Positions 13,839-41,789 of a stretch of 64,000 bases of DNA are shown in pieces. The position numbers and the translations under genes were made by a program. Location of the stretch: positions 620,001-684,000 of the forward strand of contig JAHLKT010000001.1 in NCBI GenBank assembly GCA_020444545.1. The letters run 5' to 3'. Numbering within the stretch: position 1 is the first letter of the stretch; each line of letters begins with the position of its first letter. This stretch comes from Desulfarculaceae bacterium (GTDB lineage: Bacteria; Desulfobacterota; Desulfarculia; Desulfarculales; Desulfarculaceae). The notes below the pieces were generated by a model that was given only the letters and a program-made list of their open reading frames with translations, was not told the DNA's origin and searched no databases.

Positions 13839-14438
13839 TCAGATGCCCATCATGCAGAGCGCAACTTCCGCCACCCGCTTGCCCACGCCCTGGGCGGTGG
13901 TCAGGCCCACCTTGTCGGCCTCGATGCCGCCCTCCGCGCCGCTCCAGCCGGTGCCGCCGTAGTGGGCCGTGGGCATGCCGTCGCCCACCACCACCATGTC
14001 CTGCACCAGCATGGAGGCCAGAATGCTCTGCACCGCGGTCTCCTGGCCGCCGTTGCGGAAGCCGCCCACCGCGATGGCCCCGCCCACCTTGTTGCGCAAC
14101 ATCCAGCCGTTGCGCCTAAACATCACCAGGCGGTCTAGGAACGCCTTGGCCTGGGCGGTGAGCCCGCTCATGTACACCGGGGTGGCGATGATCAGGCCGC
14201 CCAGGTCCGGGGAGGCCAGGGTCTCGATGAGGGCCGGGAAGTCGTCGTCCTGGGAGCAGGCCAGCTTCTTGGCGCAGGCCCCGCAGGCCACACAGCCGTT
14301 TACCTGGCGGCCGGCCAGCTCGATGAGCTCGGTGGTTATGCTGTCGTTCACCTCGGCCGCCGCGCGCAGGGCGGCGGTGAGCAGGGTAAAGGTGGATTGT
14401 CCTGGCCGGGGGCTGGCGGCCACGCCGATTATCTTCAT
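13839..14438 (-). CDS. Iron-sulfur flavoprotein / NADPH-dependent FMN reductase-like
   Basis: The 199-aa protein has a flavodoxin-like fold: KIIGVAASPRPGQSTFTLL at the N-terminus for FMN phosphate binding, then the compact cysteine motif CVACGACAKKLAC (about residues 49-61), which in iron-sulfur flavoproteins binds a [4Fe-4S] cluster. ATPVYMSGLTAQAKAFLDR is the usual second flavin-binding segment. It would pass electrons between ferredoxin or NAD(P)H and small acceptors. Its start overlaps the stop of the ABC ATPase gene by 4 nt, so it is the last gene of the transporter operon. This suggests reductive processing of the imported compound (inference). Confidence 0.85.
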   Translation of the reverse strand: MKIIGVAASPRPGQSTFTLLTAALRAAAEVNDSITTELIELAGRQVNGCVACGACAKKLACSQDDDFPALIETLASPDLGGLIIATPVYMSGLTAQAKAFLDRLVMFRRNGWMLRNKVGGAIAVGGFRNGGQETAVQSILASMLVQDMVVVGDGMPTAHYGGTGWSGAEGGIEADKVGLTTAQGVGKRVAEVALCMMGI

Positions 14439-15199
14439 GCGTCTGTCTCCTTTTGGCGGCCCAGCACCGTGAGGATCTCGCGGCGGATGGCGTTGGAGGC
14501 CTCGGAGGTGCGGTCGCGGGGGCGGGGCTCCTCTATCGCGAAGCGCTGCAGCACCCGGGCCGGACGGGCCGAGAGCACCAGCACCTCATCGGAGAGGAAC
14601 ACCGCCTCGTCAACGTTGTGGGTAACAAATACTATAGTGTCGCCGCGCCCGGACCACACCTTGACGAGAAACTCCTGCAAGGCGTTGCGGGTCTGGCTGT
14701 CCAGGGAGCCGAAGGGCTCGTCCATGAGCACCAGCTTGGGCTCCAGGATCAGGGTGCGGGCGATGGCCACCCGCTGCTGCATCCCGCCCGAGAGCTGGTG
14801 GGGGTAGTGCTGGGCGAACTCGGCCAGGCCCAGAGCCTCCAGATAGGCCCGGGCCCGCGAGCGGCGCACCCCCGCGCCCTCACCCGCGATCTCCAGGCCC
14901 AGCTCCACGTTGCCCAGGCAGGTGCGCCAGGGCAACAGGGCGTACTGCTGAAAGACCATGCCCACTTGGGCGCTGGGGCCGGTGATGGGCCCGCCGTCCA
15001 GCAGCACCCTGCCCTGGTCCGTGGCCTCCAGACCCGCGATGATACGCAGCAGGGTGGTCTTGCCGCAGCCGCTGGGGCCGATGAGGCTGACCAGGCGGCC
15101 CCGGGGCACCGAGGCGTCCAGGCGATCCAACACCGGCATGGCCGCGCCGTGGTTAGCGGCGGGGTAGCTTTTGACCAGGCCCTGAAGCTCCAGGCTCAT
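14435..15199 (-). CDS. ABC transporter ATPase, nitrate/sulfonate/taurine family (SsuB/TauB-like)
   Basis: An upstream extension exists in frame, but the real start is the ATG at 15197-15199, which overlaps the permease stop (ATGA); this gives 254 aa. Motifs: Walker A GPSGCGKTT near residue 41, Q-loop VFQQYALLPW, signature LSGGMQQRVAIART, Walker B LVLMDEPFGSLD, and H-loop FVTHNVDEA. The protein drives uptake by the SsuC-like permease. It is third in the order binding protein, permease, ATPase, flavoprotein. Confidence 0.93.
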   Translation of the reverse strand: MSLELQGLVKSYPAANHGAAMPVLDRLDASVPRGRLVSLIGPSGCGKTTLLRIIAGLEATDQGRVLLDGGPITGPSAQVGMVFQQYALLPWRTCLGNVELGLEIAGEGAGVRRSRARAYLEALGLAEFAQHYPHQLSGGMQQRVAIARTLILEPKLVLMDEPFGSLDSQTRNALQEFLVKVWSGRGDTIVFVTHNVDEAVFLSDEVLVLSARPARVLQRFAIEEPRPRDRTSEASNAIRREILTVLGRQKETDA

Positions 15200-15963
15200 G
15201 AGCGCGCCTCCCGCCAGGGCACCAGGCGGCGTTGGGCCAGGCGCAGGAGGATGTCGATGCCCAGGCCCACCAGGCCGATCACCGCCATGCCCGCGATGAT
15301 CTCGTCGGGCCGCTGGATATCGCGCGCGGTCATGATCATGTAGCCCAGGCCGTAGCCGGTGCGCACTCCGGTGAACTCGGCGGCCACCAGGGTCATCCAG
15401 CCGATGCCCAGCCCGATGCGCAGGCCCACGAAGATGCTGGGCAGGGCCCCGGGCAAGAGCACCTTTTTGATCACGTCGCCCCGCTTGGCCCCCAGGGTGC
15501 GCACCGCTTCCACCAGCACCGGGTTGACCTCCAGCACCCCGGCGATGGTGTTCAAGACGATGGGGAAGAAGGCGCCCAGGAAGATGATGAAGCCCGCCGA
15601 GGGCAGGCCGATGCCGAACCAGAGGATGGCGATGGGTATCCAGGCCAGGGGCGGCACCGGCCGGAGCACCTCGATGATGGGGCTCACCGAATCGCGCAAG
15701 CGGGGGAAGGCCCCCAAGGCCAGGCCCAGGGGCACCCCGATGAGCGCGGCGCTGATGAAGCCGATGGCCACGCGCAAAAGGCTGTAGAGCAGATGCCATT
15801 GCAGCAGGTGGCCCGGGGGCATGCCCTTGGTGGCCAGCTCGCCGAAGCCCTGAATGACCGCCCAGGGCGAGGGCAGCTTGTAGGCGGGCAAGACCCCGGC
15901 CATGCTCAGCCCCTGCCAGATGATCAGCAGGGCCAGGGCCAGCCACCAGCGGGCGGGTTTCAC
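15196..15963 (-). CDS. ABC transporter permease, SsuC/TauC/NrtB-like
   Basis: This 255-aa inner-membrane protein has about six hydrophobic segments and the EAA-type loop EAVRTLGAKRGDVIKKVLLPG followed by ALPSIFVGLRIGLGIGW, typical of the nitrate/sulfonate/bicarbonate permease family. The start overlaps the end of the binding-protein gene by 4 nt, and its stop overlaps the ATPase start by 4 nt. It forms the homodimeric channel of the importer. Confidence 0.93.
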   Translation of the reverse strand: MKPARWWLALALLIIWQGLSMAGVLPAYKLPSPWAVIQGFGELATKGMPPGHLLQWHLLYSLLRVAIGFISAALIGVPLGLALGAFPRLRDSVSPIIEVLRPVPPLAWIPIAILWFGIGLPSAGFIIFLGAFFPIVLNTIAGVLEVNPVLVEAVRTLGAKRGDVIKKVLLPGALPSIFVGLRIGLGIGWMTLVAAEFTGVRTGYGLGYMIMTARDIQRPDEIIAGMAVIGLVGLGIDILLRLAQRRLVPWREARS

Positions 15964-16928
15964 CTGGCCAACGCCCGCTCTAGGATAGTCGGGTCCATGA
16001 ATTCCTTGAGGAAGGCGTCCAGGTCGGGCACCTTGATGTAACCCAAACGGGCCAGGAACTCCACGTACTCCACCTCGCCGGTCACGCTGAGCTTGTAGGT
16101 GTAGTTAACGTTGGACATGGCCCGCTTGACCGTGGCCCGGTCCATGCCGGTGTAGCGCTCGGCGATCTTCAGGGCCTCGGCGGGGTGCGCCTTGATGAAG
16201 TCGGTGGCCTTGACGTGCGCGGCGGTGAGGGCCACCACCCGCTCGGGGTGCTTGGCGTAGAACTCGCGCGAGGCCACCAGCACGCAGCAGGGATGCTGCG
16301 GCCAGATCTGGCCCGAGTTGACCAGCACCCGGCCCACGCCCATGGTCACCGCCTTGGCGGGATAGGGCTCCCAGGCCACGAAGGCGTTGATCTGCTTTTC
16401 GCGGAGCGCCCCGATCATCTCCGGCGGCTTGAGCACCATGGAGCGCACCTTGTCCAGGGGCAGGCCCGCCTGGTCCAGGGCTTTCTTGAGCAAAAAGTCC
16501 TGCACCGTGGAGTGGCCGGGCACGGCCACGGTCTTGCCCTCCAGGCCGGGCAGCCCGTTTATGGGGCTGTCCTTGCGCACCACGATGGCCGAGCCCTCGG
16601 TGTTCACCTGGGCGGCCACCACCACCTTGGCCGCGTGGTTGGCCACGGCCACCGTGGCCGGGGCCTCGCCCACGTAGCCCATGTCCAGGGCCCCGGCGGC
16701 AAAGGCGCTCATCTCCTCGGGCCCGGCCCGGAAGATGCCCGCCACCTCCACCTCCAAGCCCTGCTGCTTGTAGAAGCCCTTTTCCAGGGCCACCCAGCAG
16801 GCCAGCTGGTGGATGTCCGCCTGTAAATAGCCGATGCGCACCTTGCCCGCCGCCGAGGCGGGAACGCCCCCGGCCGCGACCAAGAGCGCGCCCAGCAAGA
16901 GGATCAGGCCCAGCTTGCTTTTACCCAT
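15960..16928 (-). CDS. ABC transporter substrate-binding protein, NrtA/SsuA/TauA-like
   Basis: The 322-aa product has a signal peptide (hydrophobic stretch LGLILLLGALLVAAGG, cleavage likely after ASA) and a mature start KVRIGYLQADIHQLACWVALEKG, the usual opening for this family (IGY..., then 'ALEKGFY'). Later, KDSPINGLPGLEGKTVAVPG and AFVAWEPYPAKA match the ligand-binding lobes. It delivers an organic anion such as a sulfonate, nitrate or related compound; which one is not clear. First gene of the operon. A promoter is proposed at 16993-17021. Confidence 0.9.
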   Translation of the reverse strand: MGKSKLGLILLLGALLVAAGGVPASAAGKVRIGYLQADIHQLACWVALEKGFYKQQGLEVEVAGIFRAGPEEMSAFAAGALDMGYVGEAPATVAVANHAAKVVVAAQVNTEGSAIVVRKDSPINGLPGLEGKTVAVPGHSTVQDFLLKKALDQAGLPLDKVRSMVLKPPEMIGALREKQINAFVAWEPYPAKAVTMGVGRVLVNSGQIWPQHPCCVLVASREFYAKHPERVVALTAAHVKATDFIKAHPAEALKIAERYTGMDRATVKRAMSNVNYTYKLSVTGEVEYVEFLARLGYIKVPDLDAFLKEFMDPTILERALAR

Positions 16929-17078: not shown

Positions 17079-18599
17079 TTATTCCTCGGCCGGAGGCTTT
17101 AACCCCATGGCCATCTCCACCAGGGCGGTGAGGTCGCGGGCCACCAGGTCCGAGTCCACCGCGTTGATGCCCACCTGGAGCCCCTGGTAGCAGAAGGGGC
17201 AGCAGGAGACCAGCTCGCTGGCCCCGGTGCCCTCGGCCTCGCGCACCCGGGCCTGGGCCATCTTGTTCTGGATGTCGGGATAGCCAGCCTTGAGCCCGCC
17301 GCCCGCGCCGCAGCAGCGGGAATACTCCCGGTTGCGCGGCATCTCGTTGAGGGTGAGCCCCGGTATGTGCTCCATGATGAAGCGGGGGTCGTCGTATACC
17401 CGGCTGGCCCGGCCCAGATGGCAGGGGTCGTGATAGGTCACGGTCTGGTTGACCGGGGTATTGAACTTCAGCTCGCCGCTCTCGATGAGCCCGCGCAGGA
17501 ACTGGGCCGAGTGCATCACCTTGAGGTTCAGCTCGCCGACCCGCTCGTAGTCCTCGCGGATGGTCTTGTAGCAGCCCGAGCAGGAGGTGACCAACAGCTC
17601 GGCCCCCAAAGAATTGAACTGGTCGATGTTGTCGCGGGCCACCCGGTCGAACTCGCGGTCGCCCATCCTGAGCATCACGCTGCCGCAGCAGCGCTCCTTG
17701 TTGCCCAGAATGCCGTAGTCGATGCCCAGGGCGTCGAAGATGTTCACCGTGCTAACCGCCACCTGGCGCACGTTGGTGTCGTAGCTGGCGGTGCAGCCCA
17801 GGTACAACAGCACCTTGGCCGGCTTTTTACTGATGTCCTGGGGCACCTCGGCGATGAGCTTTTCTTTTTTGGCCCGGCGGGCCCACTTGGCCCGGGCGGT
17901 GCGCGGCTGCTGCCAGGGGTTGTCGTAGCTCTTTACGCTCTTGACCAGGCCCTGCTGGCTCTCCAGGGGGCCGTAGCCGGCGGCCACGATGGCCGCGCGG
18001 ATCTCCTCCCACAGATTCACCGTGTCCAGCCCTGCCGGGCACACGATCTGGCACTGGCCGCAGGTGGAGCACTCGTAGAGATCGGCCGCGAACTTTTCGA
18101 TCTCTTCGCGGGTCACTTCCTTATAGCCGAACACCTTGCCGATGGCCTTGCGCAGGGGGCCGGGATCGCCGCCGCCGTGGGCGATCTTGGCCAAGAGGCC
18201 GTGCTGCCCCTTGATGATGCGCAAAAACTCCGCCGCCTTGGCCCGGGGCAGGATGTCCTGGCGGCCGTCCTGGTCGTAGACCGGGCACCAGGAGAGGCAC
18301 TCGCCGCAGCGGGTGCAGGCCTCCAGCTGCAACAGGCGCTTGGATTCCAGCAGATGAATGGGGATCAGCGGGGCGCTCTCGGGCTCCGGCTCCGGCTCCG
18401 GGGCGGGCGGGGCCTCGGGGGCCGGGGTTTCCGGCGGGGCGGCGGCCGCGGGCGGCTCCGGCGGCGCAGCCGGCGCTTCCGGCGCGGGCGCGGCGGCCTG
18501 CCCGGCCGGGGCCTCGGGGGCCGGGGCCTCGGTCGCGGGCGCCTCGGGCGCCTGCTGGCTGGTGTTCTCCTCGGGAGGCTTGTTTTCCTGATCAGCCAT
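17079..18599 (-). CDS. HdrD/GlcF-like Fe-S protein with two CCG domains and a Pro/Ala/Glu-rich N-terminus
   Basis: Residues about 1-78 are a low-complexity Pro/Ala/Glu stretch unusual for the family. Then come two ferredoxin-type [4Fe-4S] motifs (CTRCGECLSWCPV and CSTCGQCQIVCPA) and two cysteine-rich CCG domains: YLGCTASYD, ERCCGSVM, SCSGCYKT, and HDPCHLGR, RCCGAGGGLK, CCPFCYQG. CCG domains hold the non-cubane clusters of heterodisulfide reductase HdrB/HdrD; relatives include DsrK, TmcB and GlcF. The 506-aa protein is likely cytoplasmic and attached to the cytochrome b subunits encoded just upstream. It could reduce a disulfide or pass electrons to or from one. Last gene of the seven-gene operon. 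Confidence 0.88.
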   Translation of the reverse strand: MADQENKPPEENTSQQAPEAPATEAPAPEAPAGQAAAPAPEAPAAPPEPPAAAAPPETPAPEAPPAPEPEPEPESAPLIPIHLLESKRLLQLEACTRCGECLSWCPVYDQDGRQDILPRAKAAEFLRIIKGQHGLLAKIAHGGGDPGPLRKAIGKVFGYKEVTREEIEKFAADLYECSTCGQCQIVCPAGLDTVNLWEEIRAAIVAAGYGPLESQQGLVKSVKSYDNPWQQPRTARAKWARRAKKEKLIAEVPQDISKKPAKVLLYLGCTASYDTNVRQVAVSTVNIFDALGIDYGILGNKERCCGSVMLRMGDREFDRVARDNIDQFNSLGAELLVTSCSGCYKTIREDYERVGELNLKVMHSAQFLRGLIESGELKFNTPVNQTVTYHDPCHLGRASRVYDDPRFIMEHIPGLTLNEMPRNREYSRCCGAGGGLKAGYPDIQNKMAQARVREAEGTGASELVSCCPFCYQGLQVGINAVDSDLVARDLTALVEMAMGLKPPAEE

Positions 18600-18627
18600 G
18601 GCTCGACTCTTCCCGACGCCGCCTAAA

Positions 18628-20061
18628 TCATTGCAGGCGGCGGTTGATAATCAGGCTCAGGGGCGCGGTGAACATGTGGCGCATCTTGCCGAAGGGCAGG
18701 TAGGCCACGAACAGGGCGGCCACCAGGCCGTGGGCGTACCACAGCCAGCCGTAGACCGCCGGCCAGTTGACTCCGGTGGCGGCCAAGAGCCGCGCCAGGG
18801 GATAGGCCACGAAGGAGTACACCGCGATGCCGTGCGGGGTCTGGCTCACCACCAGGCGGGCCGCCTCGGCCACAAAGCCCAGCACGATCATAAGGCCCAG
18901 GATGATCAGGGCCAGGTTGTCCTGCCACTCGGCCACCACCTGCTCGCCCTTGAACACCCAGCGCTGCAAGGCGGCCAGGATGACCCCGATGAGGATCAGC
19001 AGGCCCAGCAGGTCATTGACCACGGCCACGAAGCCGAAGTTCTTGTTCATCAGGGCCATGGCCAGGTCGCTGGAGGGCCAGAGCTCGTAGACCACCCAGG
19101 TGAACAGGGCCAGGCCGAAGCGGGCCATGATGGACAGGTAGATCAGACTATGGAAGAACCAGCGGCGCACGCTCTGCTTGAGCACCCGGCGCTGCCAGAG
19201 CACGTCGAACCACAGCACCTTGACGAACTCCCAGCTACGGCGCGAGAAGATCGCCTTGTACAGGCTGTCGCTGCCCCGGGAGAGCTTGTCGTGCAGGCCG
19301 CTCTCCACCCCGGCCACCCGGCCGCGCATGTAGAACAGGCCGCCGCCCACGATGCCCACCAGGAAAACAAGCAAGGCCAGGCCGAACCACCAGGAGCCGA
19401 GAGAGAAGCTGGCCGTGTGGCAGGGGAAGCAGATCAGGCCCTTGGCCGGGAGCACCATGTTGGGCGCGCCCACCTTGTTGCCCGCCACGTGGCAGCGCAC
19501 GCAGTGCTTGTCCTGGGTCAGGTCCGTGGGCCCGTGTTCGGTGAGCGGGATGGGCTTGCCCTCGAGATCCTTATGAGCCAGCTTCACCACGCCGGTTTTT
19601 TTGTCCAGCTTTACGTAGGGGCTCTTGTGGTGGCAGGCCGCGCAGTCCACCGAGAGGTGGGGGCTGTTTATCTCGCCCTCGCCGTGGATGGGGTGGCAGC
19701 TCAGGCACTGCGCCCCGGCCCTACTCTTGTGGGGCGAGGCGGCCACGTCGGTGTGGCACTGCAAGCAGGCCACCCAGCGGTGGCGGCTGGTGGCGAACAG
19801 GTCCATGGTCACCACCAGGGGCACCTTGGTCCCGTCCACCTGGCGGGAGCAGCTCTCCTTGGCGTGGCACTCCAGGCAGAGCTGCTGGTTGGCGATCACA
19901 CCCTCGTTGGAGGCCAGGTTGGGCAGATGGTGGCAGTCCAGGCACTGGCGGGCGCCCTGCCCTTCCGGGGCCGGGTCCATGGCCACCGGGGGCATGGCCA
20001 GGGCTGCGGCGGCCCAGAGCACCAGGGCCGCCAGCACGGCGATGAGGCTGAGCCTTCTCAT
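18628..20061 (-). CDS. Heptahaem cytochrome c fused to NarI-like cytochrome b
   Basis: I start at the ATG at 20059-20061, which overlaps the upstream stop by 4 nt (ATGA); the longer open frame is not used. The 477-aa product has a signal peptide (LSLIAVLAALVLWAAAALA), then seven CXXCH haem-binding motifs between about residues 38 and 235 (CLDCH, CLECH, CLQCH, CLSCH, CAACH, CVRCH, CFPCH). A membrane anchor (WWFGLALLVFLVGIVGG) follows, then four more helices like the NarI/DsrM/TmcC cytochrome b domain, ending WYAHGLVAALFVAYLPFGKM. Seven periplasmic haems and the quinone-reactive b-type domain are thus on one chain, a wire from periplasm to membrane. The HdrD-like gene follows by 28 nt. Confidence 0.9.
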   Translation of the reverse strand: MRRLSLIAVLAALVLWAAAALAMPPVAMDPAPEGQGARQCLDCHHLPNLASNEGVIANQQLCLECHAKESCSRQVDGTKVPLVVTMDLFATSRHRWVACLQCHTDVAASPHKSRAGAQCLSCHPIHGEGEINSPHLSVDCAACHHKSPYVKLDKKTGVVKLAHKDLEGKPIPLTEHGPTDLTQDKHCVRCHVAGNKVGAPNMVLPAKGLICFPCHTASFSLGSWWFGLALLVFLVGIVGGGLFYMRGRVAGVESGLHDKLSRGSDSLYKAIFSRRSWEFVKVLWFDVLWQRRVLKQSVRRWFFHSLIYLSIMARFGLALFTWVVYELWPSSDLAMALMNKNFGFVAVVNDLLGLLILIGVILAALQRWVFKGEQVVAEWQDNLALIILGLMIVLGFVAEAARLVVSQTPHGIAVYSFVAYPLARLLAATGVNWPAVYGWLWYAHGLVAALFVAYLPFGKMRHMFTAPLSLIINRRLQ

Positions 20062-20771
20062 GAGCCCGCCTCCCCGCTGCCGGAGTTCATGCGCTCCCAA
20101 AGGGCGGGATGCTCGTGCCGGATGCGCTCGGCGCTCATGCGGCCGGTGAAGATGCTGGTGTCCGCGGGCCACACCTCGGGCCTCAGATGGGCCAGGATGG
20201 GGTGCACCACGAACTTGATGGCCACCGCGATGATCGCCTCGAACAGGTGCAGCAACAGGGCGATATTGATGAAGTAGCCGGGCAGCCACTGGCTGAACCA
20301 CTCCGGGAACCACAGCACCAGGCCGGTGAGCCCCATGGTGTTCATGCCCAGAAGCACCGCCCAGTAGTCCATCTTCTCCCACCAGGCGAAGCGGTCGAAG
20401 CGAGGCTGGGGGCCGCGCCCCAAGGCCCAGCCCAAGTGGCGGAACACGTCCTTCACGTCCTGGGGGCGGGGGAACATGGTGCCCGGACCGGTGAGGCGGC
20501 CTTTCAGCACCAGCTTGTAGTAGACCAGCCAGATCAGGTGGGCCATCACCGCCGCGTAGGTCATCACCGCCAGGAAGCGGTGGGTCCAGGCCAGGCCCGC
20601 GGCCCCGCCCAAACACCAGGCGATGGCCCGGGCCCACCAGGCCCCGCCGAAGAACAGCGAGAAGCCGGTGATCCCCAGGCCCAGGAAGCCCACCATGACC
20701 AGCACGTGCAACAGGCGGTTGAGCACGCTGAAGCGCTCCACCTGTCCCTTGCCTAAATCGCGTTCCATCAT
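20058..20771 (-). CDS. Cytochrome b561/FdnI-like membrane subunit
   Basis: This 237-aa protein has about four transmembrane helices. It starts at 20771 or 20768 (tandem ATG codons), with GAGGAAG 8 nt upstream. Conserved-type histidines sit in NRLLHVLVMVGF, WTHRFLAVMTYAAVMAH and FINIALLLHLFEAIIAVAI, and the tail KFVVHPILAHLRP with IFTGRMSAE resembles the formate dehydrogenase gamma subunit. It likely carries haem b and exchanges electrons between periplasmic cytochromes and quinone. It lies between the hexahaem and heptahaem cytochrome genes. Confidence 0.88.
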   Translation of the reverse strand: MMERDLGKGQVERFSVLNRLLHVLVMVGFLGLGITGFSLFFGGAWWARAIAWCLGGAAGLAWTHRFLAVMTYAAVMAHLIWLVYYKLVLKGRLTGPGTMFPRPQDVKDVFRHLGWALGRGPQPRFDRFAWWEKMDYWAVLLGMNTMGLTGLVLWFPEWFSQWLPGYFINIALLLHLFEAIIAVAIKFVVHPILAHLRPEVWPADTSIFTGRMSAERIRHEHPALWERMNSGSGEAGS

Positions 20772-20773
20772 GG

Positions 20774-21637
20774 TTAGTGCTTCCTCAGCTTGTTTTGAAT
20801 CTCGCGGAGCAGCCACAGGAAGGTGTGGCCGTAGAAGAAGCCCACCACGCACACCGCCAGCACCCCCAGCACCGCGCTGATGGTGAACAGCAGGTAGAGC
20901 GTCTTGCGCTTGGCCTGGTCGTCCTGGGCCAGGTCCACCAGGGTGGGGTGCACCAAATAGGCCGCGAAGCGGGGGTTGGAGCCGGGATGGCAGCGCCAGC
21001 AGACCCCGGCGGTCACCTCCGCGGTCTTGAGGCTCTTCACGTCATGGGCCCCGTGGCAGTCGGTGCAGAAGGCCGCCTTGTCCCAGCCCAGCTTGTCGCC
21101 CGCCTGCCCGTGGTAGTCGTTCAAATAGGTCGCCGCCTGGGCGGGATGGCAGGAGCCGCAGACCAGGGTTTGCCGCCGGCCCAGCTCCACCCGGTCCAGG
21201 CGCGCCTTGTCGTAGTGCACCTGGTGGCAGTCGCCGCACACCGGCGAGAGATTCTGGGTCTGCTTGGTCTTGGTGCCCTTTTTTAGAGCCTCGGCGTGCT
21301 TGCCCAGGTGGTAGCGGGCAAAGGCGCTCTTGTGGCAGCGGGCGCACTGGGCGTAGTCATAACCCCGAAGGGCCGGGGTCATGAGATAGCTGGGGTCCTG
21401 GGTGTCCGGGTGGGGCGTCTTGCTGCCCGGCCGGAGGGCCAGCTCCTGTTTGGCGTGGCACTCGGCGCACTCCAGCTTGCCGTGGGCCCCGGCCTGATAG
21501 CGGCCCAGGTCCACGTACCACGACGACTCCATGCCCGGCGGGACCGCGGCCCAGGCCGCCGTGGCCAGGGCCAGGGCAGCCAGCAGGGCCAAGATGAGCC
21601 CCGCCGCCCGGCAACGATGTTTGCTCTTTAGGGCCAT
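20774..21637 (-). CDS. Hexahaem cytochrome c with C-terminal membrane anchor
   Basis: The 287-aa product has a signal peptide (AAGLILALLAALALATAAWA), six CXXCH motifs (CAECH, CARCH, CGDCH, CGSCH, CTDCH, CWRCH) and a C-terminal transmembrane segment (LYLLFTISAVLGVLAVCVVGFFYG). It would sit on the periplasmic face of the membrane. The pattern resembles cytochromes of the c554/NapC-type respiratory modules in sulfate reducers, without a clear named match. It is separated by 2 nt from the cytochrome b gene and follows the BPL_N-like gene by 14 nt. Confidence 0.9.
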   Translation of the reverse strand: MALKSKHRCRAAGLILALLAALALATAAWAAVPPGMESSWYVDLGRYQAGAHGKLECAECHAKQELALRPGSKTPHPDTQDPSYLMTPALRGYDYAQCARCHKSAFARYHLGKHAEALKKGTKTKQTQNLSPVCGDCHQVHYDKARLDRVELGRRQTLVCGSCHPAQAATYLNDYHGQAGDKLGWDKAAFCTDCHGAHDVKSLKTAEVTAGVCWRCHPGSNPRFAAYLVHPTLVDLAQDDQAKRKTLYLLFTISAVLGVLAVCVVGFFYGHTFLWLLREIQNKLRKH

Positions 21638-21651
21638 ACGCGCCTCGAACC

Positions 21652-22959
21652 TCAGTGCAGCCGCCGCTTGGCCGGGCCCTCTCCCAGGCCGGCCAGCGCG
21701 GTGGCGAAGTAAATTTTCATGAAGCAGGAAGCCGCCGCCACCAGGGCGGGGAACAGCTCCTCGGCCAGGGCCTGGGTGTCGGCTCCCGCGTCCAGGCCCT
21801 GCTTGAGGGCCCGCGCCTGGGCGGTTATGCCGGGCAATAACCCGGGCAGGGCCGCCAGGTCGTCCGGGGAACCGCGCAGGGCCGGGGCCTTACCCAAGGC
21901 CCGCAGGCGGTTCCACATGGCCTCCAGGAAGACCCTGAGCTTGGCCGGCTCGTATACCTTGCTGCCGATTAGCCAGCGGGCGGGGTGGTCCTCCAGGCCC
22001 AGGGCCACGATGCGGCTGTTGGACAGCTCGCGCTTTACGGCCAGGAGCCAGTCCTTGGCCGCGCGGCCGCTGAGTGCGTCAGCGGGCTCCGGGGCCGCCT
22101 CGGCCCTTTGCTCCGGCAGGTCGGCGTAGATGGCCGAGGCCAGCAGGCGGTTGGCCGCCGGGAAGCCGGGATGCTCGAAATGGGGGCCGAAGAGATAGAG
22201 CGCGCCTTGGCCGTGGGGCGCGCGCAAGACCGCCGCCTTGCCCAGCAGGGACTCGGCCGCGACCTCGGGCGGGGCCAAAAAGCGGGTGCGCTTTTCAAAG
22301 GCGGCATAGGTGGCCAACACCCGCACCTCCTCCGAGGCCGGGATCATGGCCGGTCCGCCGTACAGGGGCGCGGCCAGCTCCACCCCGCCCAGGGGGCCGG
22401 GGGCGCAGGCCAGGCTGATCGCCTCGCGCACCGGGTGGAACACGTAGTCGCACCCGTAGGCGGTCTTGTACTTCTCGGGCAGGACCAGAGGTTGGGGAAG
22501 GTCTCGGCTGAGATTGGCGATGGTGGCTTGAACGAAGTTGAACCAGCAGAGAGGCTCCTTGGAGGAGCGCAGCATGAGATAGGCCCCGGCGCAGGCTCCC
22601 AGATACAGCCCTCCGGCCGCCAGGAAGCCCTCCAGGGCCTTGGCTCCGGGCGGCCCCAGAGCGCGGGCCATGGCAAAGGTGTCGCCTCCGCTCACCGCCA
22701 GCACATCCAGACCGGCCAGCCCTCCGGCCGCGATCTCGCCGTGGTCCAGGAACCTGAGGTCATAAAAACCCAGGCGCTCCAGGGACTCGGCGAACCACAG
22801 CCAGGAGTGGGAGCTGCCCGCCCCGGTGTAGACCCCCAGGCGGGGGTAGCGCGGGGTGCGCTCCCGCCCCGCCCCGGCCAGGGCCGGCGGCGGCGGGGGG
22901 GCGCCTCCCCGGGCCAGACCCCGGTTGAAGGCGCTCACGTCCGAGAGTGGGTTGCGCAT
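21652..22959 (-). CDS. BPL_N-type glutamine-amidotransferase-like protein
   Basis: The 435-aa product has no signal peptide. Residues about 35-270 resemble the class I amidotransferase-like N-terminal domain of biotin protein ligases: LGVYTGAGSSHSWLWF, LDVLAVSGGDTFAMARAL, and a nucleophile elbow GGLYLGACAGAYL with a candidate Cys in GACAG. Residues 285-435 are alpha-helical with no recognised domain. Such proteins are widespread but poorly characterised; some may act as peptidases or in stress. Being placed inside a redox operon, between an AOR-like and a cytochrome gene, is unusual. The gaps are 9 nt upstream and 14 nt downstream. Confidence 0.7.
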   Translation of the reverse strand: MRNPLSDVSAFNRGLARGGAPPPPPALAGAGRERTPRYPRLGVYTGAGSSHSWLWFAESLERLGFYDLRFLDHGEIAAGGLAGLDVLAVSGGDTFAMARALGPPGAKALEGFLAAGGLYLGACAGAYLMLRSSKEPLCWFNFVQATIANLSRDLPQPLVLPEKYKTAYGCDYVFHPVREAISLACAPGPLGGVELAAPLYGGPAMIPASEEVRVLATYAAFEKRTRFLAPPEVAAESLLGKAAVLRAPHGQGALYLFGPHFEHPGFPAANRLLASAIYADLPEQRAEAAPEPADALSGRAAKDWLLAVKRELSNSRIVALGLEDHPARWLIGSKVYEPAKLRVFLEAMWNRLRALGKAPALRGSPDDLAALPGLLPGITAQARALKQGLDAGADTQALAEELFPALVAAASCFMKIYFATALAGLGEGPAKRRLH

Positions 22960-22968
22960 CAGCTACCC

Positions 22969-24264
22969 CTAGCCGCAAACCTCCGCTATCACCGCCTCCA
23001 GGCTGTCCAGGCCGAACTCCAGCTCGGTGCCGATGCCCGCCAGCTCCAGGAGCTTGTCTTCGCTCAGCTCCGGGGACAACAGCGCGAACAGGGGGTCCAG
23101 GCCGAAGAGGTAGGCCACGGCCTGGCGGCGGGTCCAGTAGGCGTCGTCGCCCGCCTGGTCCACCCCGAATATGGCCGTCTTGGGCACCGAGGGGCTGAAA
23201 GGCCCGGCCAGACCGGCCACCGGGCCGCTCAGGCCCGCCAGCGCGCCGCTGATCGCCGCCGCGTCGGTCTTGCCGGTGTCTTGGCAAACCTTGGCCACCA
23301 GGCCAGGGTCCAGGCCCAGCTTGCAGCACTGCTGGATGATCGCCCCGGCCTCGGCCAGGGACAGGCCCATCTGCTGGAACAGAGCCGCCGCGCCCAGGTC
23401 GCTGAGCAGCACGCCCATCTCCGCCTCGGCGGGCTCGGGCAGATCGGCGGGGTCGCCTTGCAGGAACAGGAAGCTGTTGGCCGCGAAGGGGGTGTTGAAG
23501 TTGGCCCGGTGGCGGTGCACCAGGGGAGCCAGCCAGTCGGCCAGGGCGTCATTGCCCATGCCCTTGGCCAGGTCCACCAGGCCCTTTTTGCCGGCCCAGG
23601 CCCCGCCCTTGACCGCGGCCTGCAAGGCCACGCACTCGTCCACAAAGGCCTCGTCGTCGGCGATCTCCAACAGGCCCAGGCCCCGGATGGCCACCGCGCG
23701 CAGGTTCTTGGCGGCCAGGGCCTTGCCAAGGCCGAAGCAGTCGCCCGCGGGCCAGTAGTTGATCATCAGGGCGGAGAGCTCCGTGGCCGCCGCGCCGGTG
23801 CCCAGCACCTGGATCAGGTCGTCGCCCTTTTCGGCGCGCACCTTGTCCACCGCGGCCCACACGTCCAGGCCCGCCAGGGCTCCGGCGTCCTCCACGTCCA
23901 GGATGCCGTCGTGCACCCAGAGCATGCTGGGGGCGGCGGCCGCGTTTTTTATCACGATGTAGTCGAAGCCCGAGTACTTGAGCTCCATGCCCAAATACTG
24001 GGTCAGCGGCGCGTGCACCACCGTGCCGGTGAGGGGGCTCTTGGCGGTGAACACCCCCAGGCCCGAGCCGGGCACCAGGCTGCCGGTGAACAGGCCCGCG
24101 CCCAACACGATGGGATCGCCGTCCAGGTGCTGGTTGTACAGGGCCAGGTTGACACCCGCCCCGCCTATCTTCTCCTGGCACAGCTCGTCGGAGAACTCTT
24201 CGATCTCCACCTCGCCGCTGGCCAGGTCAACGATGGCTATTTGGTCAGAGGCCAAAAACTCCAT
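22969..24264 (-). CDS. Truncated, cluster-less aldehyde:ferredoxin oxidoreductase-like protein
   Basis: Residues about 8-210 align by eye with domain 1 of AOR, the tungstopterin-binding part: IVDLASGEVEIEEF, IGGAGVNLAL, LTGTVVHAP, KYSGFDYIVIKN, ELSALMINYW and AAKNLRAVAI. Beyond this it is short: 431 aa against roughly 600 for typical AORs. The usual CxxCxxxC cluster motif is missing; its place is HRHRANFNTPFAA. QQCCKLGLDP corresponds to the later cysteine-containing helix region. It may still bind a pterin cofactor or may be non-catalytic. It lies 46 nt after a ferredoxin gene and in front of the cytochrome genes. Confidence 0.75.
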   Translation of the reverse strand: MEFLASDQIAIVDLASGEVEIEEFSDELCQEKIGGAGVNLALYNQHLDGDPIVLGAGLFTGSLVPGSGLGVFTAKSPLTGTVVHAPLTQYLGMELKYSGFDYIVIKNAAAAPSMLWVHDGILDVEDAGALAGLDVWAAVDKVRAEKGDDLIQVLGTGAAATELSALMINYWPAGDCFGLGKALAAKNLRAVAIRGLGLLEIADDEAFVDECVALQAAVKGGAWAGKKGLVDLAKGMGNDALADWLAPLVHRHRANFNTPFAANSFLFLQGDPADLPEPAEAEMGVLLSDLGAAALFQQMGLSLAEAGAIIQQCCKLGLDPGLVAKVCQDTGKTDAAAISGALAGLSGPVAGLAGPFSPSVPKTAIFGVDQAGDDAYWTRRQAVAYLFGLDPLFALLSPELSEDKLLELAGIGTELEFGLDSLEAVIAEVCG

Positions 24265-24310
24265 GACTGGTCACCTCTATATAAGAAGGTAGGTAAATCT
24301 CGCTCCGGCC

Positions 24311-24664
24311 TCAGTCCAGGTAGATGGCGTCCACCGGACATATCTGCTTGCACAGGGGGCCGTCGTCGCGGTCCTCGCAGAGGTCGCAGGCCTCGCGCAG
24401 GAGCATGGGCTTGGCCGAGGCGTCGCCGCCTCCTCCGCCCTCTTCCACCGCGCCGATGCGCTTCACTTCCAGGCCCTCGGGCCGCGCGATTACCAGATCC
24501 TCCTCTTCCTTGAGGATGACTCCGAAGTAGTCCTTCTTATCACGGGTGCGGTAAACAACGATGCAGGAGGACAACAGAGCGAAGGCGTCGTCGCGGTGAT
24601 ATCCGCAGGCCAGCTCGCACGCCATGCAGGCCGTGCACTTGAGCGGATCAATCTTGACTCCCAT
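24311..24664 (-). CDS. Dicluster ferredoxin-like protein
   Basis: The 117-aa protein has an N-terminal CTACMACELACGYHRDD and a C-terminal CDLCEDRDDGPLCKQICPV with VDAIYLD, a split arrangement seen in ferredoxin-like partners of AORs and in electron-transfer Fe-S subunits. A glycine-rich loop (EEGGGGGDA) separates the halves. It would bind up to two [4Fe-4S] clusters and serve as the electron partner of the AOR-like protein. First gene of the seven-gene minus-strand operon. Confidence 0.85.
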   Translation of the reverse strand: MGVKIDPLKCTACMACELACGYHRDDAFALLSSCIVVYRTRDKKDYFGVILKEEEDLVIARPEGLEVKRIGAVEEGGGGGDASAKPMLLREACDLCEDRDDGPLCKQICPVDAIYLD

Positions 24665-25184: not shown

Positions 25185-26081
25185 ATGTTCGAGGCCGCCA
25201 ACAAAACCGAGAAGGTCTCCGACCGCATCATCGAGCAGATCCGCGACGCGGTGCTTTCGGGCCAGATCAAGCCCGGTGACCGGCTGGCCTCGGAAAAGGA
25301 GCTCATCGCCCAGTTCGGGGTGAGCAAGGCCACCATGCGCGAGGCCCTGCGCGTGCTGGAGGCCATGGGTTTGGTGGAGATACGCAAGGGCACCACCGGC
25401 GGAGTCTTCGTGGCCGAAGTGGACATGAAGACCACCATCCACTCCATAATGAACTTCCTGCACTTTCGCTCGATCTCCATCAGCGATATCACCATGTTGC
25501 GCTTCACGGTGGAGCCGTCGGTGGCCCATCTGGCCGCCATGAACGCCACCGAGAAGGACCTGGAGCGCCTGCGTGAACTGGCGGAGATAACCGAAGCCGA
25601 CGAAAACGGCGACGCGGCCAGGGACATCAGCTTCCACCGCTACCTGGCCCGCATGAGCAAGAACCCGCTCCTGATCCTCATCCTGGACTTCGTGGACAAC
25701 CTTCTGCGGGACGCCAAGTACGAACTGCAACTCAGTCCCGAATTTTATCGCCACGTGCGCGAGTCTCACCGCCGCATCGTGGACTTTCTGGAGGCCCGCG
25801 ACACCGTGGGGGCCCGGGCCGAGATCGCCCGCGACCTCCTGGAGGTGGACCGCTACATGGCCGAGGCGGCGGGCAGCGAGCCCTTCGAGCCCGCCACCCT
25901 GGGACTGAACCTGGACGCCCGCTACGTGGCCGGCCCCGACAAGGACACGGCGGACGATCCCCTGGCCCAACTTTTGGACGCCTCCCTGCCCCGGCAGGCT
26001 CTGGGGCGGGCCATGGTCTTGAAGCACTTGGGCTCGGGCGGCCTCTATGTGGTGGTCCCCGAGGAGGAAGAGGAAAAATAG
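25185..26081 (+). CDS. GntR/FadR-family transcriptional regulator
   Basis: The 298-aa product has an N-terminal winged helix (about 8-75, DRIIEQIRDAVLSGQIKPGD, then SKATMREALRVLEAMGLVE) and a C-terminal helical FCD ligand-binding domain (about 95-235), with candidate metal-binding histidines around FHRYLARMS and HRRIVDFLEARD. FadR-type proteins repress or activate genes for organic-acid use and respond to an acidic ligand. The last 60 residues lie outside the usual FCD domain. It precedes the aldehyde dehydrogenase gene by 168 nt and likely regulates it and perhaps the divergent redox operon. Confidence 0.9.
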   Translation: MFEAANKTEKVSDRIIEQIRDAVLSGQIKPGDRLASEKELIAQFGVSKATMREALRVLEAMGLVEIRKGTTGGVFVAEVDMKTTIHSIMNFLHFRSISISDITMLRFTVEPSVAHLAAMNATEKDLERLRELAEITEADENGDAARDISFHRYLARMSKNPLLILILDFVDNLLRDAKYELQLSPEFYRHVRESHRRIVDFLEARDTVGARAEIARDLLEVDRYMAEAAGSEPFEPATLGLNLDARYVAGPDKDTADDPLAQLLDASLPRQALGRAMVLKHLGSGGLYVVVPEEEEEK

Positions 26082-26249: not shown

Positions 26250-27845
26250 ATGAGCGAAAACCAACGTTACTTCTTCGTGGACGATTCGGTCGCCGTCGAT
26301 CCCATCAGCGGCGAAAGGCCCATCAAGCTGAAGTATTGCGCCGGCGGCCAGTGGAAGGTTTCCGCCACCGACGTGTATATGCCTTGCTACAACCCCTCCA
26401 CCGGCGCGGTCATCGCCCTGGCCCCCCAGTGCCTCACCGAAGAGGTGGAAGAGGCGGTGCAGGCGGCCAAGGTGGCCTTTGAAAAGTGGTCCATCACCCC
26501 GGTGAGCAAGCGGGTGCAGGTCCTTTATAAGATGAAGGCCCTGTTGGACGAGAACCTGGAAGAGCTCACCGTCCTGTTGGCCAAGGAGATGAGCAAGAAG
26601 TACCAGGAGGCCATGGGCGACATCCTCAAGGTCACCGAGGTGGTCGAGTTCGCCTGCGGCGCGCCCCACATCATGAAGGGCGAGGCCCTGATGCAGGTGT
26701 CCACCAACTACGACACCTCGCTCTACCGCGAGCCCATGGGCGTGTTCGCCGGCATTCCGCCCTGGAACTTCCCGGCCATGATCCCCCACGGCTGGATGAC
26801 CCCCATCTGCATCGCCACCGGCAACTGCATGGTCTTGAAGGCCGCCAGCTTCGTGCCCCAGAGCGCCATGCGGGTCATGGAGCTGTGGCAGGAGGCGGGC
26901 ATCCCCGACGGCGTGATCAACGTGATTACCGCGGGCCGCGACCAGGCCGAGCTCTTGCTGCGCCACCCGGACATCAAGGGCATCAGCTTCGTGGGCTCCA
27001 CCAAGGTGGGCCTGCACATCTACTCCACCGCCGCGGCCAACGGCAAGCGGGTCCAGGCCCTGTGCGAGGCCAAGAACCACGCCCTGGTGCTGCGCGACTG
27101 CAAGCTGGAGCGCACCGCCGGCGGCATCATGAACGCCTTCACCGGCTGCGCCGGCCAGCGCTGCATGGCCCTGCCGGTGATCGTGGTGGAAAACGCCATC
27201 GCCGACGAGTTGGTGGAGCGCCTGGTGGCGCTGTCCAAGGAAGTTACCCTGGGCAAGGCCTGGCTGCCCGAGACCGGCATGGGCCCGGTGGTGAACCAGG
27301 GCCACAAGGAGTTCGTCACCAACTGGATCAACAAGGCCGAGGAAGAGGGCGCCACCATCGTGCTGGACGGCCGCGACCCCGAGCTGCCCGAGGGCTGCGA
27401 GAACGGCTTCTTCGTGGGCCCCACCATCATCGACCACGTGACCGAGGACATGTCCTGCGGCCGCGAGGAGATCTTCGGACCGGTCTTGTGCATCAAGCGG
27501 GTGGAGAACTTCGAGGAAGGCCTCGAGTTGATGAACAACAGCCGCTTCGGCAACGGCTCGGTGATCTACACCCAGAACGGCTACTACGCCCGGCAGTTCG
27601 CCTTCCGCACCGGCGCGGGCATGGTGGGCGTGAACGTGGGCATCCCGGTGCCCCTGGGCATCTTCGGCTTCACCGGCCACAAGCAGTCCTTCTTCGGCGA
27701 CCTGCACGTCATGGGCCGCGACGGCTTCAACTTCTTCACCGAGTCGAAGTGCGTCACCCAGACCTGGTTCCCCGAGGAAGGCGAAATCGACAATAAGGTG
27801 GACACCTGGGACGGGACCATCACCTCCCTGCCCACCGACAAGTAG
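26250..27845 (+). CDS. mmsA: CoA-acylating aldehyde dehydrogenase, methylmalonate-semialdehyde dehydrogenase type
   Basis: The 531-aa protein is a standard aldehyde dehydrogenase: PWNFPAMIP for NAD binding (about 170), FVGSTKVG (about 250), and the catalytic cysteine in NAFTGCAGQRCMA (about 295-308), the pattern of the MmsA branch. Members convert malonate or methylmalonate semialdehyde to acetyl- or propionyl-CoA without an ATP step. Here the N-terminus carries about 25 extra residues. AAGGAG lies upstream of the ATG at 26250. The gene follows FadR and precedes the FAD oxidase genes, suggesting catabolism of an amino-acid or sugar-acid-like substrate; exact specificity is uncertain. Confidence 0.85.
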   Translation: MSENQRYFFVDDSVAVDPISGERPIKLKYCAGGQWKVSATDVYMPCYNPSTGAVIALAPQCLTEEVEEAVQAAKVAFEKWSITPVSKRVQVLYKMKALLDENLEELTVLLAKEMSKKYQEAMGDILKVTEVVEFACGAPHIMKGEALMQVSTNYDTSLYREPMGVFAGIPPWNFPAMIPHGWMTPICIATGNCMVLKAASFVPQSAMRVMELWQEAGIPDGVINVITAGRDQAELLLRHPDIKGISFVGSTKVGLHIYSTAAANGKRVQALCEAKNHALVLRDCKLERTAGGIMNAFTGCAGQRCMALPVIVVENAIADELVERLVALSKEVTLGKAWLPETGMGPVVNQGHKEFVTNWINKAEEEGATIVLDGRDPELPEGCENGFFVGPTIIDHVTEDMSCGREEIFGPVLCIKRVENFEEGLELMNNSRFGNGSVIYTQNGYYARQFAFRTGAGMVGVNVGIPVPLGIFGFTGHKQSFFGDLHVMGRDGFNFFTESKCVTQTWFPEEGEIDNKVDTWDGTITSLPTDK

Positions 27846-28165: not shown

Positions 28166-29605
28166 ATGGATACCGCCACCGCCAAGAAAATTGACCCCGT
28201 CCTGGAAGAACTCCAGGGCATCGTGGGCGAAAAGAACGCCTCCGGTGCCAAGCACATCCGCTACGCCTATTCCTATGACCTCTCATTCGTGGAGCCCAAG
28301 CTCCCGGATTACGTGGTCATGGTTCAGAACGTGGAGCAGGTGCAGGAAGTCCTCAGGTTCGCCAACCGGGAGAAAATCCCGGTGGTGCCCTACACCGCGG
28401 GCACCAACATCGGCGGCCTGTGCATCCCCGAGCGGGGCGGCATCCTTATGGACCTCAAGCAGATGAACAAGATCATCGACATCGACGTGGCCGACGGCGT
28501 GGCGGTGATCGAGCCGGGCGTGAGCCACGCCCAGCTGGCCGCCGCCCTGACCCCCCTGGGGCTCCGCTTCGGTTGGCCGGTGGGGCCGCCCTCGGCCTCG
28601 GTGAGCTCCTGCGCCATCAGCCACGGCATCGGCGGGCTCAACGCGCGCTACGGCCTGCAGAGCCAGGAGATCACCTCCATGGAGGTGGTGTTGCCCACCG
28701 GCGAGCTGGTGCGGGTGGGCTCCTGCGCCATCCAGAAAAACGCCTGGCACAGCACCCTGCCCCTGCCCAAGCTCGACGGCCTGTTCAAGGGCTGGCTGGG
28801 CAGCTCCGGGGTGGTGACCAAGATGGGCGTGAACGTGCACCCGGCCCCGCCGCTTTTGAAAATCTTCACGGTGAGCTGCGACACGGTTCAGGACATGTAC
28901 TCCTACATGTTCAACCTGAGCAACTACGAGATCTGCGACGATATCACCGCGGTCTCCTGGTGGCTCAGCCAGGTGCCCATTCCCTATCCCTACAAGGAAA
29001 AGCCCGACGACGCGGCGGAGTGGAACTCCTACGCCACCACCTTCTCCTGGACCGAGGCCGAGCGCGACGCCCGGGCCGAGATTTGGGACAAGGTAGTGGC
29101 CGAGGAAAAGGCCAAGGGCACCTCCATCCAGGTGACCCACTACCCCGAGGAGGCCCTGAAGGGCCGCACCCAGCTGCCCAGCCAGGTGGTGGGCTCCACC
29201 AAGAACTACTGCAAGCAGGGCGGGGCCGGCATCTCCTGGCCCGGCACCTTCACCCCGGCCAAGAAGTGGGCCCCGGTCTACACCCGCTGGAAGGACATCC
29301 TCATCGGGCACAACCTCTCGCCCAGCGTGCGCATGAGCATGTACCGCGGGGTGCACTACGGAATGCTCCGGGCCATGATCCCCTTCAACAAGCAGTCCAA
29401 GGAGGAGACCGAGAACGCCCGCCAGGCCATCGTGGAATGCCTGCGCGTGGACCTGGACGAGGGAGGCATCCCCTACAAGCCTCCGGTGGACTTCGCCAAG
29501 GAGATCAACCTCCGGGCCGATCCGGGCTATCTCATGCTGCTCAAGCGGGTCAAGGAAATGCTTGATCCCAACGACATCATGAATCCCGGCAAATTGGGCA
29601 TCTAA
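28166..29605 (+). CDS. FAD-binding oxidase, GlcD/VAO (PCMH-type) family
   Basis: The 479-aa product has a PCMH-type FAD domain: PDYVVMVQNVEQVQEVLRFA, VVPYTAGTNIGGLCIPERGG, and later GPPSASVSSCAISHGIGGLN. The C-terminus ends in the usual LLKRVKEMLDPNDIMNPGKL. Such enzymes oxidise 2-hydroxy acids or similar substrates. The 240-400 segment (WWLSQVPIPYPYKEKPDDA) is not typical of glycolate or lactate oxidases, so the substrate is unknown. The next gene, 17 nt downstream, encodes the Fe-S partner, as in GlcD-GlcF or D-lactate dehydrogenase pairs. Confidence 0.85.
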   Translation: MDTATAKKIDPVLEELQGIVGEKNASGAKHIRYAYSYDLSFVEPKLPDYVVMVQNVEQVQEVLRFANREKIPVVPYTAGTNIGGLCIPERGGILMDLKQMNKIIDIDVADGVAVIEPGVSHAQLAAALTPLGLRFGWPVGPPSASVSSCAISHGIGGLNARYGLQSQEITSMEVVLPTGELVRVGSCAIQKNAWHSTLPLPKLDGLFKGWLGSSGVVTKMGVNVHPAPPLLKIFTVSCDTVQDMYSYMFNLSNYEICDDITAVSWWLSQVPIPYPYKEKPDDAAEWNSYATTFSWTEAERDARAEIWDKVVAEEKAKGTSIQVTHYPEEALKGRTQLPSQVVGSTKNYCKQGGAGISWPGTFTPAKKWAPVYTRWKDILIGHNLSPSVRMSMYRGVHYGMLRAMIPFNKQSKEETENARQAIVECLRVDLDEGGIPYKPPVDFAKEINLRADPGYLMLLKRVKEMLDPNDIMNPGKLGI

Positions 29606-29622
29606 GGGAGGGGAGCAAGATC

Positions 29623-30945: not shown

Positions 30946-31198
30946 AACAACCGGCGGGCCGGGTCTACTTGGGAGGGTGCCCGGCCCCCTGAAGCAACAT
31001 CAAAGGGCGACAAGGAGGTTTCTGAAGCAAAGCGAGCCTTAAAATCTACGTCCGCCGGCCGGGAGCACACCATAGTGACTCTCAGCCAGTCTCCTCCGGC
31101 GGCCCAATATAGGGCAACGCGATAAGCGGCGTTCCGGGTCCGGGCCAAGGTGGCCCCGCCCGAAGCCGCCGCCTGGGTTCTCTTAAAGGAGGGGAGTT

Positions 31199-32401: not shown

Positions 32402-32433
32402 GCGAGGCGGTTTCCTGAAGGCTTAAACCGAAC

Positions 32434-32475
32434 GGGAGGATGGGCGGGGGCCCCCGGGCCCCTTCCCCTCCTCCC
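32434..32475 (+). promoter_or_regulatory. Hairpin between binding-protein and permease genes
   Basis: Outer arms GGGAGGA (32434-32440) and TCCTCCC (32469-32475) enclose a GC core with GGGGCCCC. It is likely to attenuate or to stabilise the upstream mRNA, so that the binding protein exceeds the membrane subunits (inference). Confidence 0.5.
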
Positions 32476-32514
32476 TCACCACGGCCACCCCGGGGTAGGC
32501 AAGGTAATTAAGGC

Positions 32515-34393: not shown

Positions 34394-34396
34394 GAC

Positions 34397-35170: not shown

Positions 35171-35192
35171 GCAGCCAAGGCAGGAACAAGAG

Positions 35193-35897
<705 letters not shown>

Positions 35898-35978
35898 ACC
35901 CGAGTTTCTCCCGGCCGCCGGGCCCTGGGCGAGAGTCCGGCCGCCGGTCATGCCAATCGTCAAGCTCCGGAGGTGAGC

Positions 35979-36995: not shown

Positions 36996-37020
36996 ACGGG
37001 GCCATCCCATTCACCATTGC

Positions 37021-37057
37021 CGCCCCCGTCCGCCGGAGCCCCGGCGCGGCGGGGGCG
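37021..37057 (+). terminator. Hairpin terminator after the liv/UroD operon
   Basis: CGCCCCCG (37021-37028) pairs with CGGGGGCG (37050-37057), with additional internal CCG/CGG pairing, followed by TTGTCTT. It sits about 25 nt after the UroD-type stop. A plausible intrinsic terminator with a poor U-run. Confidence 0.5.
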
Positions 37058-37093
37058 TTGTCTTGCCCCCCACCCGGGGGTTATAAAGCAGTG

Positions 37094-40545: not shown

Positions 40546-40573
40546 CAATCCCCTCCCAACCGCCTCCCAATCA

Positions 40574-40601: not shown

Positions 40602-40603
40602 GA

Positions 40604-41734: not shown

Positions 41735-41789
41735 ATCCCGCGCCCCCAGGCGGGCCGGCCAATCTTTTTCGGAGAGAGGACAAAGCTCT

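Follow-up and report, generated by a model that had tools for sequence, protein, structure and literature searches.

What is the function of a gene cluster in which a relative of aldehyde ferredoxin oxidoreductase (AOR) is encoded beside multihaem cytochromes and an HdrD-like protein? The question is raised by seven minus-strand genes at 17079-24664 in a 64,000 nucleotide stretch of contig JAHLKT010000001.1 (positions 620,001 to 684,000), here called the window, from a Desulfarculaceae bacterium (GCA_020444545.1) with a genome of 4.38 Mb that carries dsrA above the family cut-off. The balance of the evidence tips slightly towards a modular, EtfD/HdrDE-like, quinone-linked membrane electron-transfer complex, which would be fed by a GlcD-type dehydrogenase and, in sulfate reducers, would be connected to the periplasm by a haem branch. 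This reading is drawn from the conserved gene order, the matches to EtfD, NarI, and FdnI, natural fusions in two relatives (L105 and L100), the GlcD neighbourhood, the swapping of membrane modules, and the co-occurrence of the genes.

The seven open reading frames have no internal stops and are separated by exactly 46, 9, 14, 2, -4, and 28 nt. Counts of six and seven CXXCH motifs in the two cytochromes match their hexahaem and heptahaem labels, and the domain labels of all seven genes are borne out by Pfam, with the one qualification that the AOR-like protein matches AFOR_N only. The original prediction of a seven-gene operon was right in its genes and their order, but its extent is too short, as the same-strand run reaches 10969. 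Past 17079, it continues with ssuA, ssuC, ssuB, and genes for an FMN reductase, a radical SAM-GNAT fusion, and an AIRS-like protein. The gap between hdrD and ssuA is 150 nt; ssuA, ssuC, ssuB, and the FMN reductase gene are joined by 4 nt overlaps, and 337 nt then separate them from the radical SAM-GNAT gene. Promoter and terminator scans at the locus gave signals near background.

The AOR-like protein (AORt) was searched for in 20 genomes of the family and 395 of the phylum, the BPL_N-like protein (BPLN) was searched for in the same 395, and 40 neighbourhoods were fetched and mapped. The closest relative by the AORt scan, and the sole close match in that contig scan, is a Desulfarculaceae metagenome-assembled genome (L003; 85 % identity). 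Gene order in relatives had been named beforehand as one of two points on which the prediction could fail, and on this point it holds. The complete order of ferredoxin (Fd), AORt, BPLN, hexahaem cytochrome (cyt6), cytochrome b (cytb), heptahaem-cytochrome b fusion (cyt7b), and HdrD is kept in nine loci (L003, L090, L091, L094, L096, L097, L098, L104, and L105) from four families (f1, f11, f50, and f57), and several more loci agree with it as far as their truncated contigs reach. In L105, a single 694 aa frame covers cytb and cyt7b, and this natural fusion speaks for a physical association of the two proteins. Hundreds of kilobases to megabases separate the genes for AORt, BPLN, and the radical SAM protein in the single-contig genome G049 (C1), therefore genetic linkage is not obligatory.

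Strong matches were found among the 395 genomes for AORt in 34, BPLN in 35, and the radical SAM protein in 35. AORt and BPLN occur together in 33 genomes (p 1.4e-44), as do BPLN and the radical SAM protein (p 2.5e-43; Fisher tests across the 395 genomes, with relatedness ignored). The genes for BPLN and the radical SAM protein lie no more than 5-10 kb apart in 19 out of 20 genomes having both on one contig, a count that omits fragmented assemblies in which the two are split between contigs. In family f35 (L122), BPLN, the NarI-like protein, HdrD, permease, ATPase, radical SAM, GNAT, and AIRS form a single tight run. AORt, BPLN, and the radical SAM protein are co-inherited, and the conserved unit exceeds seven genes.

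The radical SAM and GNAT parts of the fusion score above the cut-offs of the MSMEG_0568 (TIGR04043, 348 bits against 304) and MSMEG_0567 (TIGR04045, 120 bits against 68) families, and the AIRS-like protein, which matches AIRS and AIRS_C, is just under that of TIGR04049 (309.4 bits against 321.3). Radical SAM, GNAT, and AIRS proteins accompany a nitrilase in the Nit1C cluster, and the set has been linked to nitrile and cyanide metabolism (PMC1199592, PMC10138600). None of the 34 carrier genomes has a Nit1 nitrilase (TIGR04048) above cut-off and therefore, although this set resembles Nit1C, the cluster is not Nit1C; here the set is instead joined to the membrane redox complex and an SsuABC transporter. 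In BPLN, C123-A-G-A and H260/E262 are invariant, and the C-terminal domain has no family match. A selenocysteine reading of TGA in two BPLN matches was rejected, because the matched stretch starts before the BPLN start, beside the end of AORt.

The HdrD-like protein has two [4Fe-4S] motifs and two CCG domains. Its profile is best matched by mycobacterial EtfD (PDB 9ojn_A, E 8.7e-61), with HdrB far weaker (~1e-16). In EtfD, a chain of Fe-S clusters leads to haem b and menaquinone, and the bridging cysteines of HdrB are replaced by Thr539 and His583 (PMC13083937). In contrast, all ten HdrB-type CCG cysteines (C269, C304, C305, C340, C343, C393, C429, C430, C467, and C470), including the bridging C343 and C470, are invariant in 20 HdrD sequences, and disulfide chemistry is for that reason kept in view. 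The cluster could then encode a membrane-bound disulfide reductase, in which HdrD would reduce or oxidise a small-thiol disulfide with electrons from menaquinol or periplasmic cytochromes; the putative thiol would be made, imported, or modified by the radical SAM, GNAT, AIRS-like, BPL_N-like, and SsuABC proteins. In favour of this, inheritance together with the radical SAM set is nearly perfect. However, the set is elsewhere tied to nitriles and cyanide rather than thiols, and CCG cysteines are also retained in proteins other than disulfide reductases; as a whole this explanation is rather unlikely. The HdrDE/HdrB-type heterodisulfide reductases resemble HdrD in the CCG domains, the ten cysteines, and the HdrB match, but here there are a multihaem c fusion and extra cytochromes, and these bacteria have no known heterodisulfide.

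The membrane partners also point to a quinone-linked complex. The cyt7b profile matches NarI (1.7e-5) and, weakly, the NarI-like half of EtfD (9ojn_A, E 0.007), so that HdrD and cyt7b correspond to the two halves of one EtfD chain. Unlike EtfD, which is a single fused polypeptide, these are separate genes here and the NarI-like half carries seven c haems. In the NarI-like domain, H444 and H462 are kept throughout and H304 is kept in the clade of the window. The best solved relative of cytb is FdnI (1kqf_C, E 2e-10), and H22, H64, H175, and H190 are invariant in the cytb alignment, at positions where haem ligands would be predicted from FdnI. The hexahaem cyt6 has an N-terminal signal or anchor and a C-terminal hydrophobic helix, and its six CXXCH motifs are invariant in 12 orthologues.

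This haem module is interchangeable. Its place is taken by Rieske, cytochrome b6, and PetD-like genes in L100 (L101 and L103 alike), by an NrfC-type Fe-S protein, NrfD, a molybdopterin-family protein, and a pentahaem cytochrome in L115, and by a NarI-like protein alone in L122-L127 and L106. The haem-type HdrD sequences cluster in trees of BPLN and HdrD, whose deeper nodes are too poorly supported for module exchanges to be counted. Although the counts are not phylogenetically independent, dsrA is above cut-off in 10 out of 11 haem-type genomes and in only 3 out of 22 other carrier genomes. The haem branch therefore accompanies sulfate reducers, while the core is independent of sulfate reduction. 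The HdrD of L100 (L100:4122-6158) carries membrane helices and, at 111-211, a cbb3-type di-haem c domain (Cytochrome_CBB3) that precedes the Fe-S/CCG part; this fusion would join a periplasmic c haem to the cytoplasmic CCG protein in one chain. HdrD proteins with a membrane-anchored di-haem c domain at the N-terminus were also seen in L101, L103, L120, and L128.

The association with dsrA, together with a CCG protein, a NarI-like cytochrome b, and a multihaem c cytochrome, would suit a Tmc/Hmc/Dsr-type module of sulfate respiration, with electrons passed to cytoplasmic DsrC. The likeness to Tmc, Hmc, and DsrMKJOP noted in the original prediction holds for this overall plan, but HdrD is far below the NCBIfam cut-offs for TmcB (93 bits against 735), DsrK (87 against 400), and HmcF (68 against 750), cyt7b is far below that for TmcC (17.5 against 240), and the likeness of HdrD to EtfD is stronger. 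Those complexes have no counterpart of the AOR-like, BPL_N-like, and FdnI-like parts and, as no dsrA passes the cut-off in 19 of the 22 carriers that are not of haem-type families, such a module is unlikely.

The FdnI-like cytochrome b adjoining a hexahaem cytochrome, with the multihaem-b fusion, also recalls the Cbc modules of Geobacter, and the cluster might be an outward conduit of the CbcL/CbcBA kind, through which cytoplasmic electrons would exit via 13 c haems to extracellular or partner-cell acceptors. The likeness to CbcL/CbcBA is one of architecture; cytochrome b and the hexahaem cytochrome are separate genes here, and a NarI-type fusion and HdrD are added. No genes for a porin-cytochrome or outer-membrane cytochrome were seen nearby, and the haem branch is missing from many relatives, which makes an outward conduit decidedly improbable.

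Returning to the quinone-linked complex, its most unusual part is AORt. Homology to AOR is clear: AFOR_N is matched at 128 bits (Pfam cut-off 29.8), domain 1 matches 1aor_A (E 1.4e-46), and hhalign against 13 full-length AORs covers 429 columns at probability 100, with large internal deletions. In the Pfam search, AFOR_C was not matched. The protein consists of AOR domain 1 and a compressed remainder, with approximately 200 residues missing. Where domain 1 of AORs has the SNxGG-type pterin/Mg motif, or a variant keeping GG, a proline is invariant and GG is absent in all 32 AORt members. The four Fe-S cysteines (CxxCxxxC and a distal Cys) are all substituted in the window (N, T, A, and D). Seven members (L110, L114, and L117-L121) have all four, L115/L116 have half of them, and the rest have lost most or all. 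The proximal motif and the distal Cys disappear together, as expected if both held one cluster. The lineage appears to have lost the catalytic site first and the Fe-S cluster later.

Judged by these residues, AORt is not a working tungsten enzyme and should not be called an aldehyde oxidoreductase; the AOR-like label is sound as homology but not as function. A catalytically active tungsten AOR complex, with aldehyde oxidation feeding the membrane chain, is largely excluded by the missing motifs and residues, despite the AFOR_N match and a ferredoxin partner as in AorAB. AOR, AorAB, and BamB share with AORt the homology of domain 1 and a small adjoining ferredoxin gene, and differ from it in length and in the pterin motif, as well as in the Fe-S cysteines, which are gone in the clade of the window but retained in the seven relatives. 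The ferredoxin itself has eight cysteines in two [4Fe-4S]-type sets (C10, C13, C16, and C20; C93, C96, C105, and C109), and identity to the copy in the window is 57-98 % in haem- and bc-type f9 loci and f63, and 41-46 % elsewhere. The predicted membrane-spanning redox complex is supported by the conserved operon and by parts that would link cytoplasmic Fe-S clusters, quinone, and periplasmic haems; AORt, however, lacking the tungstopterin motif and the Fe-S cysteines, is not a catalytic Fe-S/AOR module in this organism.

A different role is suggested by the neighbourhood. Haem-type loci are flanked by a divergent GntR regulator and GlcD/GlcF genes, and most also have an aldehyde dehydrogenase gene. 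The GlcD orthologues beside Fd/AORt in haem-type relatives are 74-95 % identical to that of the window, and the GlcF orthologues beside them 69-91 %. Among the 34 fetched AORt loci, GlcD is present in 20 and GlcF in 19, contig ends cutting many of the others. In family f35 (L109 and L111-L113), genes for two FAD_binding_4 proteins and for CCG proteins share a same-strand run with Fd-AORt. Judged by these neighbourhoods, Fd-AORt would be an electron relay linking a GlcD-type dehydrogenase with the HdrD/membrane part.

In the proposed complex, a cytoplasmic GlcD-type FAD dehydrogenase and GlcF-type CCG subunit would oxidise a substrate, probably a 2-hydroxy acid or similar, as neighbourhood and family suggest. 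The two-cluster ferredoxin and metal-free AORt may be the docking or relay part between this dehydrogenase and the membrane. By homology with EtfD, the Fe-S clusters of HdrD would then hand electrons on to haem b in the NarI-like domain of cyt7b, and to menaquinone. In sulfate reducers, cytb, cyt6, and the seven haems of cyt7b would connect the quinone pool with periplasmic c cytochromes for electron exchange; in other lineages this periplasmic branch is swapped or absent. The whole path would run from GlcD and GlcF through Fd/AORt, HdrD, haem b, and menaquinone to cytochrome b and the c haems, probably within one complex. The complex probably shares its substrate or a cofactor with the co-inherited BPL_N-like, SsuABC, radical SAM, GNAT, and AIRS-like proteins, which would supply or use it.

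Several points weigh against this proposal. The direction of electron flow is not readable from sequence, the electron donor is putative, and no etf gene was noticed among the neighbours, the genome not having been searched for ETF. Retention of the bridging cysteines of catalytic HdrB, unlike in EtfD, fits disulfide chemistry and electron relay equally. The Fd/AORt pair is on another contig or far from BPLN-NarI-HdrD in f35, f76, and f32, therefore linkage of the AOR-like gene to the cytochrome genes is not obligatory. The relay role of AORt is based on neighbourhood, and AlphaFold models of AORt and BPLN (two sequences) had a mean pLDDT of 37-39 and were set aside as unusable.

It is possible, and proposed here tentatively, that the whole set is one undescribed anaerobic pathway, in which a small molecule, perhaps a thiol or nitrogen compound, would be imported or made, an HdrD-type enzyme would oxidise or reduce this molecule in coupling with the quinone pool, and the AOR fold would be recycled as a cofactor-free electron-transfer or docking subunit. 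The gene combination was not found in the literature searched, including papers on sulfate reducers; subscription papers and preprints were outside this coverage, so its novelty is provisional. AORt would be a case of an AOR lineage retained for another use despite loss of its tungsten and Fe-S sites, and domain-based annotation as aldehyde ferredoxin oxidoreductase would be misleading. The quinone-linked HdrD core appears to have its membrane partners exchanged like modules between lineages. It is also tightly tied to the radical SAM/GNAT/AIRS set, a set without known reaction, and this tie offers a way into what the set does in bacteria that do not use cyanide.

Table. Genes of the cluster and its surroundings, with positions in the window.
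Feature	Position	Strand	Basis
Ferredoxin-like protein (Fd), 117 aa	24311..24664	-	Two [4Fe-4S]-type Cys sets
Degenerate AOR-like protein (AORt), 431 aa	22969..24264	-	AFOR_N, hhalign against AOR, site comparison
BPL_N / class I glutamine-amidotransferase-like protein (BPLN), 435 aa	21652..22959	-	Pfam BPL_N, alignment
Hexahaem c-type cytochrome (cyt6)	20774..21637	-	Cytochrome_C7, six CXXCH
FdnI-like cytochrome b (cytb), 237 aa	20058..20771	-	Ni_hydr_CYTB, 1kqf_C match
Heptahaem c cytochrome fused to NarI-like cytochrome b domain (cyt7b), 477 aa	18628..20061	-	Nitrate_red_gam, seven CXXCH
HdrD-like protein, 506 aa	17079..18599	-	CCG x2 and Fer4_8
SsuA-family ABC substrate-binding protein	15960..16928	-	TIGR01728, 199 bits (cut-off 163.5); conserved downstream in relatives
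ABC permease (SsuC-like)	15196..15963	-	Open reading frame, position, and conserved neighbourhood only
ABC ATPase (SsuB-like)	14435..15199	-	Open reading frame, position, and conserved neighbourhood only
NADPH-dependent FMN reductase family protein, 199 aa	13839..14438	-	FMN_red, 6e-27
Radical SAM (MSMEG_0568 family)-GNAT (MSMEG_0567 family) fusion, 518 aa	11945..13501	-	TIGR04043, TIGR04045
AIR-synthase-like protein (sll0787 / methanogenesis-marker-2 type), 328 aa	10969..11955	-	TIGR04049; AIRS, AIRS_C
Divergent GntR/FCD regulator	25185..26081	+	Beside the operon in haem-type loci of f1, f11, f50, f57
CoA-acylating aldehyde dehydrogenase family protein (MMSDH-like)	26250..27845	+	TIGR01722, 522 bits (cut-off 448.5)
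GlcD-like FAD dehydrogenase	28166..29605	+	FAD_binding_4
GlcF/TfrB-like CCG Fe-S subunit	29623..30945	+	Family search and conserved neighbourhood

Two further conserved proteins were seen in the relatives. One of approximately 240-270 aa lies between HdrD and the transporter genes (L104:15956-16780, with homologues in L098, L101, L103, and L106), and had no family match when the L106 copy was searched against Pfam and NCBIfam and the L104 copy against NCBIfam only. The other, of approximately 145 aa, adjoins the aldehyde dehydrogenase gene (L098:14134-14571, L105:6056-6517, and L100:11645-12088); it is possibly ferritin-like by eye, and the L098 copy had no NCBIfam match. In the window, the plus-strand region from the GlcD/GlcF pair onwards (28166-46163) includes a branched-chain amino-acid type ABC transporter and, by eye, corrinoid methyltransferase-like genes (UroD-like, corrinoid protein, and RamA-like), which suggest use of a methylated compound. 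On the minus strand at 46762-49004, genes resembling those for an ACR3-type arsenite transporter and an ArsC-like phosphatase, also by eye, adjoin a cobalamin adenosyltransferase-like gene.

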